Shown piece by piece: positions 3,660 to 9,950 of a stretch of 64,000 nucleotides of DNA. Location: positions 1-64,000 of the forward strand of contig QHBO01000017.1 in the NCBI GenBank assembly GCA_003243965.1, given 5' to 3'. The DNA comes from Chloroflexota bacterium. Its GTDB lineage: Bacteria > Chloroflexota > Limnocylindria > QHBO01. Position 1 is the stretch's first letter, and every line of letters starts with the position of its first letter. Position numbers and translations under genes: made by a program. The notes beneath the pieces were generated by a model. The model saw nothing but the letters and a program-made list of their open reading frames with translations, was not told where the DNA came from and did not search any database.

Positions 3660-4172
3660 CTACCGCTCCCTGGCCGCTGAGGCTGCGGCGCGCACGTGCA
3701 GGCGATGGATGGCGTAGTCGTCCAGGAAGGCACGCTGGGCCGCCGTCTCGACGGCCTCGGGGTGGCGCGCCCGGCGCACCGCCGCCACCGCCCCATCGGC
3801 GGACAGGCCCGCAGCGATCAGGGCTCCGGCGCACACCGTGCCGGTCCGTCCGACGCCGCCCATGCAGGCGACCGCCACGTCACCGGTTGATCGCCCCTGT
3901 CGGATCAGCTCGACGATCTCGTCCATCTCCTCCACGCTCCGCGGCGGAGCGCCGTCGGGCATCGGTCGGCGGACCACCTCCAGACCGAGCGCATCCGCCG
4001 TGCGCACGGTGGCAGGGTCGCCCCACCGCGCCAGCTCCGCGTCCTCGACCAGCAGGACCAGGCGGTGCACGCCTTCGCCGATCAGCGATGCCAGGTCGGC
4101 CCGCAGATCGCGGCGGTAGACGAGCCCCGGGTACCTCACCGATGGGCCGTGCTTTCCGGGCAGGAACGTCAT
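3660..4172 (-). CDS. dual-specificity/tyrosine protein phosphatase (CDKN3-like)
   Basis: A CX5R phosphatase signature, CMGGVGRTG, lies at residues 103-111 (nucleophile C103, R109), with a likely general acid D73 in the RPMPDGAPP segment. The sequence resembles the CDKN3-type dual-specificity family, which removes phosphate from Ser/Thr/Tyr residues. The ATG at 4172 is the only canonical start in frame. However, the frame stays open up to a stop at 4281-4283 and encodes a homologous-looking N-terminus (LRIDWLPTDDLGEPPSGRLG) before it, so the real protein may begin upstream at a non-canonical codon. It lies downstream of the DUF3090 gene in the same operon. Confidence 0.75.
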   Translation of the reverse strand: MTFLPGKHGPSVRYPGLVYRRDLRADLASLIGEGVHRLVLLVEDAELARWGDPATVRTADALGLEVVRRPMPDGAPPRSVEEMDEIVELIRQGRSTGDVAVACMGGVGRTGTVCAGALIAAGLSADGAVAAVRRARHPEAVETAAQRAFLDDYAIHRLHVRAAASAARER

Positions 4173-4263
4173 GCCCAGCCGGCCGGATGGCGGCTCGCCG
4201 AGATCGTCAGTCGGCAGCCAGTCGATGCGCAGGGTTGGATCGAGCCGCTCGTCCCCCTGCGGC

Positions 4264-4824
4264 TCAGTTGAGATGGCCGTTCATCCGGCTGCAGAAGTGG
4301 CCCTGCGGCTCGAGCGGCTGGCCGCAGAAGGGGCACGCGGGGCGCCCCGAGGCGATGAGCGTACTGGCGCCATGGATGAACGCGCGCGCCCGTTCCGGAG
4401 CGACTCGCACACGCACGAGGTCCGGCCCGTCTTCGGCGTCGTCACCGACGACGGCGTACTCACCGTCGTCGCTCAGTGGCTGCGCCTCGACCATGATCCG
4501 GGCGCTCTCGGGCTCCCACGCAACCGCCATCGGCCCGACCCGGAAGAGCTCGACCAGCGGCTCCTCCAGCGGCTCCTCCAGCGGCTCCTCATCGGTCGAA
4601 ACCGCGGTGGCAACCGACGGCTCGCCGCCGCCGACCCTCTCCAGCATCTCGGCGAGACGCTCGGCAAGTGCGGCCACCTGGACCTTCTCGAGGCTGACGC
4701 TCACCAGCGCACCGCCCTTACGGGCCTGCAGGTAGAAGGTTCGCTGACCCGGATCCCCGACTGCGCCGGCAAGGAAGCGGTCAGGGTCATCGAAGACGAA
4801 GAGGCGGCGCGTCATCCGGTCCAT
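4264..4824 (-). CDS. DUF3090 family protein
   Basis: The 186-residue protein matches DUF3090 closely: N-terminal RRLFVFDDPDRFLAGAVG and RTFYLQAR, central ARIMVEAQ, and a C-terminal zinc-ribbon-like CPFCGQPLEPQGHFCSR segment with three cysteines and one histidine. A threefold EEPL repeat (12-bp tandem DNA repeat near 4562-4595) extends the acidic linker. In actinobacteria DUF3090 genes usually neighbour a phosphatase-type gene, and the downstream phosphatase here fits that habit. Function is unknown. Confidence 0.8.
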   Translation of the reverse strand: MDRMTRRLFVFDDPDRFLAGAVGDPGQRTFYLQARKGGALVSVSLEKVQVAALAERLAEMLERVGGGEPSVATAVSTDEEPLEEPLEEPLVELFRVGPMAVAWEPESARIMVEAQPLSDDGEYAVVGDDAEDGPDLVRVRVAPERARAFIHGASTLIASGRPACPFCGQPLEPQGHFCSRMNGHLN

Positions 4825-4944
4825 GCTAACGGACGCACAGAGGGACCGGAGATGTGCCCATTCTCCGATCCCTCGTCCCCCGCAATGCTCCGACGAGCCG
4901 TGCCCGTGCCAAGCGTCGGTGCATCACCGTAGCGCTGCCCGAGC

Positions 4945-4977
4945 GGCGCTGTCAACTCTCAGTTGACCGAAAGCGCC
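4945..4977 (-). terminator. long hairpin at the 3' end of the XRE-TPR gene
   Basis: Inverted repeat GTCAACT-CTC-AGTTGAC (4951-4967) is extended by GGCGCT/AGCGCC (4945-4950 and 4972-4977) across a 4-nt bulge. It overlaps the stop codon of the minus-strand regulator. There is no clear T-run, so it could be a terminator or an operator. Confidence 0.45.
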
Positions 4978-6257
4978 TCGCTGGTGAGCTCGTAGGCCCC
5001 ACGATGATCACCCGCCGCCGCGCGAAGATCGGCCCATTCGCGCAAGACCTCGCGGATCCGAGCCGGAGACGCTCCATCTCGGGCCAGGGCCGCCGCCTGG
5101 GCATACCGCTCCTCCGCCTCAGGTGCCGAGCCGGCCTGGCGCACCGCGCGGGCATCGGTCAGGGTCGCGGCAAGCTCGGCGAGCCGGTTACCGGTTGCGT
5201 GCGCCAACTGGGCAGAGCGACCCGCGAGTTCACGGGCCTCGTCACGCTTCCCCCCGGCGAGCGCGACGCGAGCCTCCGTCTCGAGGACTGCGGAAAGAAA
5301 TCGATCATCGGCCATCTGGACCGCCTGGCGGTGGGCGTCTGCCACCAGCTCGGCGGCCCTGGCGAGGTTGCCCGAGGCGAGGTACGCGAGCGCAAGGTCA
5401 TTCTCGATGGAGGCCACCTCGGCCACCGCTCCAGCGGCCCGATACAGTGACAGGGCCTGCAGTCCGGTACGAATCGCCGCCTCGACGTCGCCCGTCTCGC
5501 GATAGCTGATGGCGAGACCGAACAGGAACGTGGCACGCGCCCGGGCATCGAGCTGATCGGCATATCCCCGGGCCGCCTCGAGATAGCCCAGCGACCGCGC
5601 ATGCTCGCCCACCCGGGACTCGATCGCCGACAGCGCCATCAGCAATCGCATCTCGAAGTCAGGCTCGACCCGCAAGCCGCCGCGGACCCGCTCCAGCAGC
5701 GCTGCGATCACGTTCCTGGCCTCCACCTCGTTGTCGGAGAGGTACAGGCCGTAGCCGAACCAGTAGCGGGCGAGGGCTGCGTCCGGTTCCCGATGCATCG
5801 CCTCGAACAGGCGCGCGGCCTCGGCGGCAGGTCCCACCGCGTCGCGCCCGCGATCCAATCGACAGTAGCCTTCCGCGAGGCCGCGGAGCGCCTCCGCGCG
5901 GGCCTGATCGTCGAGTGGCTGCTCCAGCAGCGTCGTGTAGCCGTCGATCGCGGCTTCCCAGTCCCCGGACGCGAGCCGCATGTCGACCTCGAGGCGACCC
6001 CACACCGGGTTCTGCTCTCCCAGGAAGTGGCTCGCCGGCAGGCCGAGCCGCTCCGCAAGGAAGTTGAGCGCGACCATCGACGGCCGCGCGATGCCGGTCT
6101 CCAGGGCGCTGATGTAGGCCTTTGTGTAGCGGGTGGCGGCCAGCTGCTGCTGTGTCAGTCCGGCGCGCTGCCGCGCCTCACGGATGCGCAACCCGATGCG
6201 TCGCGCGAGTTCGGCGTCCTGCTCCGTGGCGCGCGCGACTGTCCGTGTGCGTGGCAT
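4959..6257 (-). CDS. XRE-family HTH regulator with TPR repeats (RRNPP-like architecture)
   Basis: This 432-residue protein has an N-terminal XRE helix-turn-helix (about residues 17-72: IREARQRAGLTQQQLA, YISALETGIARPS). About 340 residues of helical repeats with TPR character follow (for example LAISYRETGDVEAAIRTGLQ). The layout is that of RRNPP peptide-sensing regulators and of other TPR regulators. The ATG at 6257 was chosen over a longer frame because a TAAACT -10 element lies 7 nt upstream. It is divergent from a 39-residue secreted peptide, which may be its ligand or target. DNA binding is inferred from the HTH. Confidence 0.75.
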   Translation of the reverse strand: MPRTRTVARATEQDAELARRIGLRIREARQRAGLTQQQLAATRYTKAYISALETGIARPSMVALNFLAERLGLPASHFLGEQNPVWGRLEVDMRLASGDWEAAIDGYTTLLEQPLDDQARAEALRGLAEGYCRLDRGRDAVGPAAEAARLFEAMHREPDAALARYWFGYGLYLSDNEVEARNVIAALLERVRGGLRVEPDFEMRLLMALSAIESRVGEHARSLGYLEAARGYADQLDARARATFLFGLAISYRETGDVEAAIRTGLQALSLYRAAGAVAEVASIENDLALAYLASGNLARAAELVADAHRQAVQMADDRFLSAVLETEARVALAGGKRDEARELAGRSAQLAHATGNRLAELAATLTDARAVRQAGSAPEAEERYAQAAALARDGASPARIREVLREWADLRAAAGDHRGAYELTSEALSVN

Positions 6258-6264
6258 CGCGGGC

Positions 6265-6270
6265 AGTTTA
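6265..6270 (-). promoter_or_regulatory. -10 element (TAAACT) for the XRE-TPR gene
   Basis: TAAACT on the minus strand lies 7 nt before the ATG at 6257 with no ribosome binding site, a leaderless configuration. Confidence 0.45.
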
Positions 6271-6391
6271 CACGCCGTGGCAAGCCCCAGTTGACGCGTT
6301 GTGCACGAACCAAGGTACCTGAGACCCCCGGCGAATCCAGTACCCACGGGTCATTGGCCGATGGGCCTTCCGCCCCGATCGTAGGCCGCGG

Positions 6392-6413
6392 TCCTCGGCC
6401 GAGCGGCCGAGGA
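6392..6413. promoter_or_regulatory. 9-bp inverted repeat upstream of the secreted-peptide gene
   Basis: TCCTCGGCC and GGCCGAGGA are separated by GAGC. The repeat sits in the 174-bp divergent region, directly before the ribosome binding site of the peptide gene. It is a candidate operator for the neighbouring regulator or a 5' leader hairpin. Confidence 0.45.
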
Positions 6414-6431
6414 GCTAGAAGGGAGAACCTC

Positions 6432-6551
6432 ATGAGCCTCACGCGCATCGCACGCGCCCTGGTGCTCGCCGGGTCGCTCGCCACGCTCGCGGCACTCAGC
6501 CTTGCTTCGGCGGTCCTCGGCGTCACGAACGGTAACGGCTGGCCCCACTAG
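6432..6551 (+). CDS. 39-residue secreted peptide, possible signalling peptide
   Basis: A short ORF with a good ribosome binding site (AAGGGAG, 6 nt spacing) encodes a basic start (MSLTRIAR), a hydrophobic helix (ALVLAGSLATLAALSLASA) and a short polar end VLGVTNGNGWPH. This is a signal peptide with only about 9-12 residues left after export. It is followed by its own hairpin terminator and stands opposite an XRE-TPR regulator. The size and layout resemble RRNPP pheromone precursors. That role is inference; it could also be a secreted or membrane micropeptide. Confidence 0.65.
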   Translation: MSLTRIARALVLAGSLATLAALSLASAVLGVTNGNGWPH

Positions 6552-6576
6552 GCCCGCGCCACTTCGCAAAGGATGG

Positions 6577-6604
6577 AACCGGGGCGGCCCAGCTGCCCCG
6601 GTTT
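6577..6604 (+). terminator. hairpin terminator after the secreted peptide
   Basis: AACCGGGGC and GCCCCGGTT form a 9-bp stem with a 9-nt loop, followed by a weak T-rich stretch. It lies 25 bp after the peptide stop codon. Confidence 0.6.
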
Positions 6605-6618
6605 CGCTTGTCCGCGAC

Positions 6619-7209
6619 CTATTTTTTCGAAGCCTGGAAGTAGGGGTTGGTCCCCGCCGCGTGATCGGTGGTATCGACCACGCCGGTGATCTCCGGCACC
6701 TCCCGGCGGATGGCGACCTCGATCCCCTCGCGCAGCGTGACATCGACCTGGGCACATCCCTGGCAGCCCCCACCCATCTCGATGTACGCGGTCCCGTCTC
6801 GGACCTCCAGCAGGGTCACGAATCCGCGATGAGCGCGGATTCCGGGGTTGACCTGGCGATCGATGACATCCTGCACCGCCGTCGCCACCGGGTCGCGCCA
6901 GCCTTCGTTCGGGTTGTCGATGCCGAGCCCGCCACCGGCGCCTGATCGGTCGAGCACGACCGCGGCCCCGTCGAGGTGCTGGGCGCTCTCGACGTCGACG
7001 GCGATCGTCAGGCCACCGAGCGCCAGCACGAGATCTGCCGACGTCGCCGCCGACGGATCCTCGAGCGCGATCTGATAGTCGAAGCGCGCTCCGCGTCGTC
7101 CGGCGACGCGGAGCCGCAGAACGGCGTTCGGGAAGCTGTTCGCCTGGCGAACGGCGTCGATGCGGTCGCGAGCCTCAGGGGAGACCGTGATGAACGGGAC
7201 GTGGGCCAT
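6619..7209 (-). CDS. NfuA-like Fe-S cluster carrier (NifU C-terminal domain)
   Basis: The 196-residue protein has a degenerate A-type (HesB/IscA-like) N-terminal domain without its cysteines (about 1-100). The NifU C-terminal domain follows (about 110-190) with the cluster-binding GGGCQGCAQVDVTL segment (C149, C152). This is the NfuA architecture, which carries a 4Fe-4S cluster to target enzymes. Its start codon has TAGGCT exactly 6 nt upstream, so it is probably transcribed from its own leaderless promoter despite following ligD by only 59 bp. Confidence 0.85.
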   Translation of the reverse strand: MAHVPFITVSPEARDRIDAVRQANSFPNAVLRLRVAGRRGARFDYQIALEDPSAATSADLVLALGGLTIAVDVESAQHLDGAAVVLDRSGAGGGLGIDNPNEGWRDPVATAVQDVIDRQVNPGIRAHRGFVTLLEVRDGTAYIEMGGGCQGCAQVDVTLREGIEVAIRREVPEITGVVDTTDHAAGTNPYFQASKK

Positions 7210-7215
7210 CGGCTC

Positions 7216-7221
7216 AGCCTA
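7216..7221 (-). promoter_or_regulatory. -10 element (TAGGCT) of the NfuA-like gene
   Basis: TAGGCT on the minus strand is 6 nt before the ATG at 7209, with no Shine-Dalgarno sequence. Confidence 0.45.
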
Positions 7222-7268
7222 CTCCGGGTGGGCGCCACTGGCCGATTCAGCGGCCGACCCGGCAAGCG

Positions 7269-9950
7269 TCAGAGCGGCGGCAGCTCCTGGCGCAGGCTGA
7301 GCGCCTCGGCAAACAGGTCGCCCACCTCGGCCAGACGTGCGCCGGCGCTGGCGATGTTCCATCTGTTCGGTCGCAGCAGCGGATCCTCCAGCTCCTCCCA
7401 GCGGATCGGCATCGAGACCGGTGCCCCGGGCGCCGGTCGAACGACGTACGGGCCGACGAGCGTCTTGTTGACCGCGTTCTGCGTGTAATCGAGTCTTGCC
7501 CTGCCGCCGCGTCCCTGCTTGGACCATTCCCAGCTGACGAGGTCGGGGGCGGAGGCACCGACCGCGCGCGAGATGCGCTCCACCCAATCGCGCGTCTGCG
7601 CGAAGGTGTAGATCGGCTCGATCGGTATCCAGACCTGGATGCCGCGTTGCCCGGTGGTCTTGGGCAGGCCGCGCACGCCGAGGTGAGCCAAGGCGGTCCG
7701 ATACAGGCGCGCCAGCAGCAGGACGTCCTCCCAGCTGGAGCGCTGCCCCGGGTCGATGTCGATCAGCGCATAGGTCGGGCGATCCGGCGCCTCGGTTCGC
7801 GACGTCCACGGGTGAATCTCGATCGCGGCCTCTTGGGCAAGCCACGCGAGGGTCGCCGCGCTGTCAACGACCACATAGTCTTTCGTCCCCTCGTGGCCGG
7901 TGTACGTCCAGCGTCCGATCCATGGCGGCGCGTGGCCCGGGACATCCTTCTGCCAGAAGCCGTGGCCGACTCCGATGCCGTCCGGATAGCGATGCAGGTT
8001 GACCGCCCGCCCCGCCAGGTGACCGAGGAGCACCGGAGCCATCGAGACGTAATACCCGATCAGGTGTCGCTTGGTGACCGGCGGCTGGCCCGCCTCGGCG
8101 TCGGGCGGAAAGAGCACCTTGTCCAGGTTCGTCAGCCTGACCTGGTGGCCGCCGACCGTCCAGACGCCCTCGGCGGGCAGTTCGGCGAGGGCCTTGAGCT
8201 CGACCGCGGTGGTGGCATCGGGCGGTGGTGCGACACTCCGCCGACCGACGACGCGGGATTCTGCTCGCCGCCCCGCGCGTGCCGTTTCCCGCTCGGCGGT
8301 TGCGGTCGCGCGCGCGGTCGGCACGGCCAGCTCGCGGTGGACCGTCGCAGGGTCGCGGTCAAGCTCGAGTCCCTTGAAGGCGGCCTGGCGCAGGAGGCCG
8401 TCGCTGGTCCATTCCGCGAACTCGGCGCGAATCACGACGCGGGGCTCAACCCATAGCGCCTCTCGCAGCCGGGGAGCGGGGTCGAGCGGAGACGTATCGC
8501 GTCGGATCGTGGCGAACGTGTCGAGCAGACGCCGGCGCATGCGGGCGTCGATCCCGCTCCCCACCTGGCCAGCGTGCCGCAGCCGGCCGCCGTGCTGGAC
8601 GGCCACGATCAGCGAGCCGAGGTCCTTGTGGCTGCCCCGCCCCGGCAGCCAACCGGCGACGACCAGCTCCTGCTCACGCCGCAGCTTCAATTTGAGCCAT
8701 TGCCTGGACCGCCGGCCCGGCTCGTAGCGGCTCGATCGATGCTTGGCGACCACGCCCTCGAGGCCCCGCTGCCGTGCTGCATCGAGGAATGCGAGCCCGT
8801 CTCCGACCACATGCGACGCGTAGCGCACCATCGGATGGTCGCGGATCACGCTCTGCAGCAGGCGCTTGCGGTGCTCAAGCGGCACGCTGAGGAGGGAGCG
8901 ACCGTCGAGGTACAGAAGGTCGAACACCTCGTACACCAGGGGAATGGCCTGCACCTCGTCCGGCGACAGCTGCGTTCCGCGTGGTGCGTGCTTGTCGGCG
9001 AGCCCGAGGCCGCGGATTCCGGTCCGCTCCTGGAGCAGGGAGAAGTGCGGGTTGCCGTCGCGGTCCAGGGCGACGACCTCTCCATCGACCACGGCGTCGC
9101 GGCCGGCCAGCCAGCTCGCCTTCCCCGCCAGGTCCGGGAAGTACAGCGCGGCGTCGTTGTGGTTGCGCGTCCACAGCCGCGCCACCCCGTCATGGACGAC
9201 GGCTTCGACTCGATAGCCGTCCCACTTGACCTCGAACAGCCAGTCGTCGTCGCTGAAGGCGTCGGTCGTGAGGGTCGCCTTCATCGGCGGGATGAAATCC
9301 GCCAGCGGTCCCTCGACCGCCTCCGACAGGTCGATCTCGGCGGACTCGAGCCGCGTCCCGCCGCGCTGGATGGCGGGCGCGCCACGCGCCACCTCGTCGT
9401 TGGTGCGGCCGGTCTTCACGCTGGCCGGGTGATCCTCCGCGTCCCAACCGGGAACGGCGAACTCGTCGCGCTTGTGAATCAGGAGCCACATGTCCTTGTC
9501 ATCGCCGGACCCGGGGCCGCGCGCCGAGGTGCGGACCAGCGTGAACCGGCCGCGCAGCTTCTCACCGCGCAGACGCAGCTTCAGCTCGCCTGCGCGCACC
9601 GCGCGGCCAGGGTCATCGGTCTCCTCTGGCTCGAACATGCCCCAGTCCCAGACGATGACGTCGCCGGCCCCGTACTGCCCACGGGGGATGACGCCTTCAA
9701 AGTCGAAGTACTCGACCGGATGGTCCTCGACGTGAACCGCCATCCGTCGCTGGCCGGGGTCCAGGGTCGGGCCCTTGGGCACGGCCCAGCTCACCAACAC
9801 GCCGTCGATCTCGAGCCGCACGTCATAGTGGAGGCGCGTTGCGCGGTGGCGCTGAACGACGAACCGCCGCTCGCCAGTGGTCCGCTGCTCGCCCGCCGGC
9901 TCGGGCGTCGCGCCAAAGTCCCGCTTGCGTCGATAGCGCTCCAGCGACAT
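7269..9950 (-). CDS. ligD: DNA ligase D (PE-LIG-POL)
   Basis: The 893-residue multifunctional enzyme of bacterial non-homologous end joining has three domains. A 3'-phosphoesterase domain covers about 28-160 (RLHYDVRLE, H41 and D43). An ATP-dependent ligase domain covers about 220-540 (adenylated K242 in EVKWDGYR, DGEVVALD, EGVVAKH, WLKLK). A primase-like polymerase domain covers about 600-893 (TNLDKVLFP, metal-binding DIDPG at 731-735). The order matches Pseudomonas LigD rather than the mycobacterial POL-PE-LIG order. It starts 3 bp after the HAD gene, so the two are one operon. No Ku gene is visible in the window. Confidence 0.93.
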   Translation of the reverse strand: MSLERYRRKRDFGATPEPAGEQRTTGERRFVVQRHRATRLHYDVRLEIDGVLVSWAVPKGPTLDPGQRRMAVHVEDHPVEYFDFEGVIPRGQYGAGDVIVWDWGMFEPEETDDPGRAVRAGELKLRLRGEKLRGRFTLVRTSARGPGSGDDKDMWLLIHKRDEFAVPGWDAEDHPASVKTGRTNDEVARGAPAIQRGGTRLESAEIDLSEAVEGPLADFIPPMKATLTTDAFSDDDWLFEVKWDGYRVEAVVHDGVARLWTRNHNDAALYFPDLAGKASWLAGRDAVVDGEVVALDRDGNPHFSLLQERTGIRGLGLADKHAPRGTQLSPDEVQAIPLVYEVFDLLYLDGRSLLSVPLEHRKRLLQSVIRDHPMVRYASHVVGDGLAFLDAARQRGLEGVVAKHRSSRYEPGRRSRQWLKLKLRREQELVVAGWLPGRGSHKDLGSLIVAVQHGGRLRHAGQVGSGIDARMRRRLLDTFATIRRDTSPLDPAPRLREALWVEPRVVIRAEFAEWTSDGLLRQAAFKGLELDRDPATVHRELAVPTARATATAERETARAGRRAESRVVGRRSVAPPPDATTAVELKALAELPAEGVWTVGGHQVRLTNLDKVLFPPDAEAGQPPVTKRHLIGYYVSMAPVLLGHLAGRAVNLHRYPDGIGVGHGFWQKDVPGHAPPWIGRWTYTGHEGTKDYVVVDSAATLAWLAQEAAIEIHPWTSRTEAPDRPTYALIDIDPGQRSSWEDVLLLARLYRTALAHLGVRGLPKTTGQRGIQVWIPIEPIYTFAQTRDWVERISRAVGASAPDLVSWEWSKQGRGGRARLDYTQNAVNKTLVGPYVVRPAPGAPVSMPIRWEELEDPLLRPNRWNIASAGARLAEVGDLFAEALSLRQELPPL

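Follow-up and report, generated by a model that had tools for sequence, protein, structure and literature searches.

Within the 64,000-nucleotide stretch of Chloroflexota DNA analyzed here (hereafter, the window), which lies on contig C17 of a 2.2-Mb source genome that is 93% complete, a gene for an XRE-type regulator stands divergent from the gene for a 39-residue peptide, with their start codons 174 nt apart (Table 1). An earlier note, made from the sequence, had read the peptide as a signal sequence with a short tail, and both its reading frame and its conservation in relatives bear this out: a basic start and a hydrophobic stretch are followed by small residues where cleavage is likely and then by VTNGNGWPH. 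The ribosome binding site attributed to the peptide gene was likewise found ahead of its ATG. No same-direction gene lies downstream, the next gene being convergent. The claim that the peptide gene has a terminator of its own stands in part: a 12-nt hairpin, 92% paired, lies 26 nt past the stop codon, but its T-run is short and the consensus scan made no terminator call. In the same way, the inverted repeat noted in front of the peptide gene is present with perfect 10-nt arms and a 2-nt spacer, but it is unconserved in 17 related intergenic regions and was rejected as an operator. Two further candidates were set aside, namely a 316-residue ORF (5601-6551) that contains the peptide and is taken as a chance frame extension, its first three quarters being antisense to the regulator, and the single, sub-threshold microRNA match of an Rfam scan of positions 4000-7500.

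Table 1. Genes and sequence elements at the regulator–peptide locus, in window coordinates
Feature	Position	Strand	Details
XRE-HTH/TPR regulator, putative peptide receptor	4959-6257	-	432 aa; ATG 6257, stop 4959
Propeptide gene	6432-6551	+	39 aa, MSLTRIARALVLAGSLATLAALSLASAVLGVTNGNGWPH; ATG 6432, stop 6549-6551; family profile E 2.4e-11
C-terminal tail VTNGNGWPH, putative mature signal	6522-6548	+	TNGNGWPH also in the second gene, own contig C7
Shine-Dalgarno site AGGGAG, peptide gene	6420-6425	+	From sequence
Palindromic element TGGCAAGCCCCAGTTGAC, putative operator overlapping the regulator promoter	6278-6295	.	Consensus CAAG-N5-CTTG
Conserved intergenic block GTACC-N4-GGGTCATTG	6340-6357	.	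Alignment of 18 intergenic loci; divergent promoter region
Inverted repeat, probably incidental	6392-6413	.	Arms 6392-6401/6404-6413; unconserved
Hairpin, possible weak terminator	6577-6603	.	In the gap separating the peptide and NifU-domain genes
NifU-domain gene	6619-7209	-	Converges on the peptide gene
DUF3090 gene	4264-4824	-	Beyond the regulator

The regulator had been described as one HTH followed by TPR repeats, and domain searches and structure prediction agree with that description. Pfam returned HTH_31 (4.6e-10) and HTH_3 (1.1e-8), both above cut-off, together with TPR_12 in two stretches (E 1.4e-6) at 28.8 bits, just below its cut-off of 30.1. The AlphaFold2 model (mean pLDDT 89, pTM 0.68) predicts an HTH and then TPR-like helix pairs through to the C-terminus, in a long stack that we take, by assumption from TPR folds, to be right-handed. 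Foldseek comparison of this model ranked the eukaryotic TPR proteins LGN/Pins first, with RRNPP members behind them (Rap of pLS20 with Phr, PlcR with PapR, RapI, RapF and Phi3T Rap), and because these eukaryotic proteins are the best structural matches, the predicted likeness to RRNPP receptors is generic. Sequence similarity to the RRNPPA transcription factors is confined to the HTH (PlcR, 9e-9; ComR, 8.6e-5), as were the matches of a defence-library search, and RopB was absent among the matches listed in the sequence and Foldseek comparisons. The TPR-regulator plan is also shared by the NsdA family and other XRE-TPR regulators without a known ligand; the NCBIfam NsdA-family match is weak (E 1.1e-4, 21.8 bits vs. 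a cut-off of 75), so that, judged by this score, the regulator is not a member of that family.

Alignment of 18 intergenic regions revealed the palindrome CAAG-N5-CTTG roughly 35 nt upstream of the start of the regulator gene, the window's own copy having one mismatch. Of the 16 named order loci with enough flanking sequence, 14 have the palindrome at -35/-36 relative to that start, compared with 6% of control stretches; it is rare at the regulator-proximal position in the outgroup family and is order-specific. The window's copy was the only mismatch-free site of an operator search in its own genome, and this search for a regulon gave no credible further site, the match counts being equal to those of a control pattern.

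Conservation of the regulator–peptide pair

The earlier note had proposed an RRNPP-like pair outside Firmicutes, and this proposal is supported by the conservation of the pair in Chloroflexota relatives. Regulator orthologues with 63-70% identity are present in 19 of the 22 searched genomes of the order (the source genome counted). A loss of the peptide ORF beside orthologous regulators was looked for, and in the order every orthologous regulator with sufficient flanking DNA was instead accompanied by a divergent mini-ORF encoding a peptide that terminates in [WF]P followed by 0-3 residues. A search for the exact tail NGNGWPH before a stop codon in 22 and in 177 relatives matched only the source genome, because tails vary between species.

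More widely, a scan of a public genome collection yielded 75 named loci in Chloroflexota metagenome-assembled genomes that encode a related regulator. Under fixed rules (30-62 residues, a basic start, a hydrophobic stretch and [FYWLIV]P close to the end), which were set after the first examples were known and applied identically to the controls, a divergent peptide ORF was detected in 49 of 70 testable regions, whereas the opposite strand gave 0 of 70 and dinucleotide shuffling 3 of 2100. When leaderless forms and matches to the family profile were included, a cognate mini-ORF was found nearby in 61 of the 75 loci, a count that is not independent since the profile was trained partly on the same peptides. 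The peptide gene lies downstream of the regulator rather than divergent from it at a few loci, and no peptide was recognized at seven loci with ample flanks. The pair is real and widespread, and its close family is mostly limited to the class: at 1e-25 it was found in 39 of 400 phylum genomes, 33 of them in the class. One locus, L053 (JAICUY010000038.1), is titled Steroidobacteraceae, a label that is probably wrong for this bin, since its regulator and peptide group within the Chloroflexota order.

A much larger conserved N-terminal function of the peptide had been named as a finding that would speak against the proposal, but conservation was found to be limited to the signal and the short tail. 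In the profile alignment, a basic start, a hydrophobic stretch and small residues (often A-x-A) precede a tail of about nine residues, commonly of the form [DG]GGxxx[FYWLI]P[HRK], and the tails end in [FWYLI]P-x0-3-stop. Substitutions within one genus numbered 291 at third codon positions vs. 123 and 92 at the others (92 at the second), and in another group 459 vs. 261 and 224; because the differences concentrate at third positions, the peptide gene appears to be under coding-level selection. The locus L099 (JACCQX010000100.1, - strand, 2630-2887) encodes a propeptide that repeats its tail, DLAGAPWPK...DLAGAPWPR, as a two-copy pheromone precursor would; Bacillota propeptides with tandem pheromone copies are known (PMC11343458).

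Co-variation of the tail with the regulator, which had been suggested as a check, was seen in two forms. In several genomes a paralogous regulator (45-48% identical) has its own mini-peptide, and the tails of these (NKPPPGWP, NGKGSWP, NSDKGSWP, GQPPIPR, GQPPFPR and TNPPNPWP) all differ from the primary tail, which fits separate channels. The other form is a second, unlinked peptide gene that repeats the genome's own tail.

A second peptide gene and the loss of the leader

In the source genome, a second mini-ORF on contig C7 ends in the identical TNGNGWPH, and profile and pattern searches identified such a second unlinked gene in 12 genomes of five genera, the source genome included. Several matches to a GGGWP-tail pattern were discounted as chance because they fell within long ORFs or lacked a start. 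Where the flanks were read, the neighbours of the second gene were a fused 2-oxoacid dehydrogenase E1 gene, an EamA transporter or a polyamine-type ABC transporter. Between second and primary peptides of the same genome, the eight-residue cores were identical at 92 of 96 residues against a permuted mean of 53.9, and none of 200,000 permutations reached 92 (p<5e-6, a value that overstates independence, as the genomes are related). The comparison within one genus is the fairer test, with 45 of 48 matching vs. 36.8 expected (exact p 0.0028); in four leaderless genomes, a set too small for the test, p was 0.08. Recent gene conversion does not account for the matching cores, as 41 of 86 same-residue codons differ synonymously between primary and second gene, a share near the 55% found between genomes. 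The signal sequences of the two genes differ too, and in the ten residues preceding the core the two agree at 2-4 positions only. Since the cores match across unlinked genes, a shared receptor is suggested, which would impose such agreement on both tails.

A search for an operator common to both peptide genes gave none, and the second gene is preceded instead by 11-bp direct repeats of its own. By strict match, GGTAAGC occurs three times at 11-bp intervals about 100 nt upstream of 11 of the 12 second peptide genes, and in the source genome a triple repeat GTAA-N7-GTAA-N7-GTAA (C7:10429-10454) precedes the gene. The 11-bp direct repeats would suit an OmpR-family regulator, and the triple repeat is possibly the box of an OmpR/GlnR-like one; nitrogen-responsive, GlnR-like control is our guess by likeness to GlnR boxes. 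As side observations, close matches to the repeat occur in the source genome at C22:14743, C16:106585, C9:9610 and C7:29745 (L197-L202), genes near such repeats encoding a class-III aminotransferase, an L-asparaginase II, an S41 peptidase and a 5'-3' exonuclease, and at C8:1300-1369 (L192-L196) the 11-bp unit GTAACCGCCAC forms a perfect tandem array ahead of a + strand ORF.

The window's own peptide has a leader, and leaderless forms were found in the sister genera g2, g3, g4, g6 and g9. The primary ORF there has exactly 12 codons in g2, g3, g4 and g9 (e.g. MRSAHTGGGWPS and MRRVTNGSGWPL) and 19 codons in g6, and each leaderless primary ORF has a Shine-Dalgarno-like site. Wherever both genes were found in these genera, both lack the leader: the second copies of g2 and g6 are leaderless as well, with 18-20 codons (e.g. 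MRTITRDCSGHTGGGWPA). Despite the absent signal sequence, the tail core is kept. In the regulator tree all members of the outgroup family are leadered, which places one or two losses of the leader inside the order, the best tree needing a minimum of two changes.

These leaderless forms bear on whether the peptide leaves the cell at all. It might instead be made and sensed in one cell as an intracellular co-regulator, its signal sequence merely setting level or place, and the five genera with a leaderless primary gene, two of them with a leaderless second copy too, speak for this, as does a profile search of the leaderless genomes that gave no other leadered copy except the peptides of paralogous regulators. 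With no visible export route, the leaderless peptide may act only inside the cell in the species that make it. We nevertheless consider a purely intracellular ligand unlikely overall, given that a signal sequence with a conserved pattern is present in all outgroup families and in most of the order, and that the leaderless communication peptides (LCPs) of Firmicutes, in the RopB clan, are secreted without a leader by an unknown route (PMC10518010), which makes a missing leader compatible with export.

Two readings that dispense with a peptide ligand were also weighed. Translation of the ORF could stall ribosomes at the aromatic–proline end by the stop codon and control a downstream gene in cis, as a leader or arrest peptide does; the conserved tail ending would agree with this, and some second copies do lie directly upstream of the E1 dehydrogenase gene and in line with it. 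The g2 second copy, however, is divergent from E1, the primary site has no same-direction gene downstream of it, an ORF of 12 codons would be short for a classic arrest peptide, and control in cis leaves the within-genome match of two unlinked tails unexplained, so we hold this reading to be very improbable. A toxin–antitoxin or bacteriocin–immunity pair, in which the XRE regulator restrains a small hydrophobic secreted toxin, is scarcely credible at this locus. Such pairs commonly join an XRE protein to a small hydrophobic peptide, and the HTH here weakly matches HipB-like antitoxins, but it is the polar tail that is conserved and not the hydrophobic stretch, which the leaderless forms do not have, and the regulator carries a long TPR domain. 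Moreover, the pair has been passed on vertically and keeps its genomic position, and searches for the peptide in plasmids and for the regulator in phages gave no match. Both readings are disfavoured because the tails match in trans and the primary site has no downstream gene.

Proposed signaling circuit and relation to known systems

We consider it probable that the regulator and the peptide form an RRNPP-like pair, in which the TPR regulator would bind the tail as its ligand and the palindrome would mediate autoregulation of the pair. The signal sequence would export the 39-residue propeptide, and cleavage near its end (...VLG|VTNGNGWPH) would free a nonamer with the core [ST][GN]G[GNA][DG][WF]P. 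The peptide may then re-enter the cell, Opp-type binding proteins being present (SBP_bac_5 proteins in 9 of 9 genomes), and dock in the TPR groove of the regulator, altering its hold on the palindrome, whereby peptide and receptor would both be autoregulated from the divergent promoter. The second propeptide gene, with its different promoter, would feed the same receptor, and in some sister genera, where the leader is gone, the nearly mature peptide would be translated directly. The ligand–receptor relation by itself is a little more probable than this full circuit, and communication between cells less so, because, given the leaderless forms, the role might be confined to the inside of the cell.

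This plan has close counterparts among the RRNPPA systems (PlcR-PapR, Rgg-SHP, ComR-ComS, Rap-Phr and AimR), in which an HTH and TPR receptor of 250-500 residues likewise stands beside a short propeptide with an N-terminal signal and a C-terminal signal peptide. The divergent layout is that of Rgg-SHP, and tandem pheromone copies such as those of L099 are also known there (PMC11343458). PlcR and Rgg are shorter than the Chloroflexota receptor, and the Chloroflexota system further differs in its glycine-rich tail ending in [FWYLI]P, in its second unlinked propeptide gene with an identical core and in a receptor whose sequence similarity lies in the HTH only. Because of this restricted match to PlcR and ComR, and because generic TPR proteins lead the Foldseek ranking, we liken the regulator to RRNPP receptors in working plan, by analogy, and leave shared ancestry with RRNPPA aside. 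The leaderless forms resemble the SIP/RopB system of the LCP class, in which an ultrasmall ORF for a nearly mature peptide is divergent from an HTH-TPR receptor (PMC10518010). In contrast to these, the Chloroflexota ORFs of 12-20 codons encode polar, glycine-rich peptides, the likeness to LCPs drawn here being one of layout, and orthologous loci in sister genera keep the leader, which allows its loss to be mapped onto a tree.

The published surveys of RRNPP-type systems consulted here cover only Bacillota (Firmicutes), their mobile elements and viruses (PMC10075063, PMC12700828, PMC9765709), and no such system in Chloroflexota or Actinobacteria was found in the literature searched, most subscription papers lying outside its scope. 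The present pair suggests that bacterial peptide signaling has a little-known branch outside Firmicutes and, if the proposal is true, would extend peptide quorum sensing to another phylum, Chloroflexota, known almost solely from metagenomes. The wider proposition, that Chloroflexota have a large peptide-receptor family of their own, in which two pheromone genes with distinct promoters serve each receptor and in some lineages both have shed the leader, seems to us evenly balanced. The evolutionary origin of LCPs has been stated to be unknown (PMC10518010), and here leadered and leaderless forms occur within one orthologous family, which makes the change datable and testable; if true, leader loss at both unlinked genes would show how LCPs may arise from ordinary propeptides. 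Through the tail match between the two genes, sets of cognate and non-cognate peptides are also already available for use in binding assays.

Apart from the close family, distant XRE-TPR regulators in other Chloroflexota families (L225, L227, L232 and L233) and in family f5 (L224 and L229) have tiny secreted-type peptides upstream on the same strand. At these few loci, which were picked by eye, the tails include GGSVPCC, DGHGGGCC, DSTGPHI, GSTGPGI and CDPHGSPGLC.
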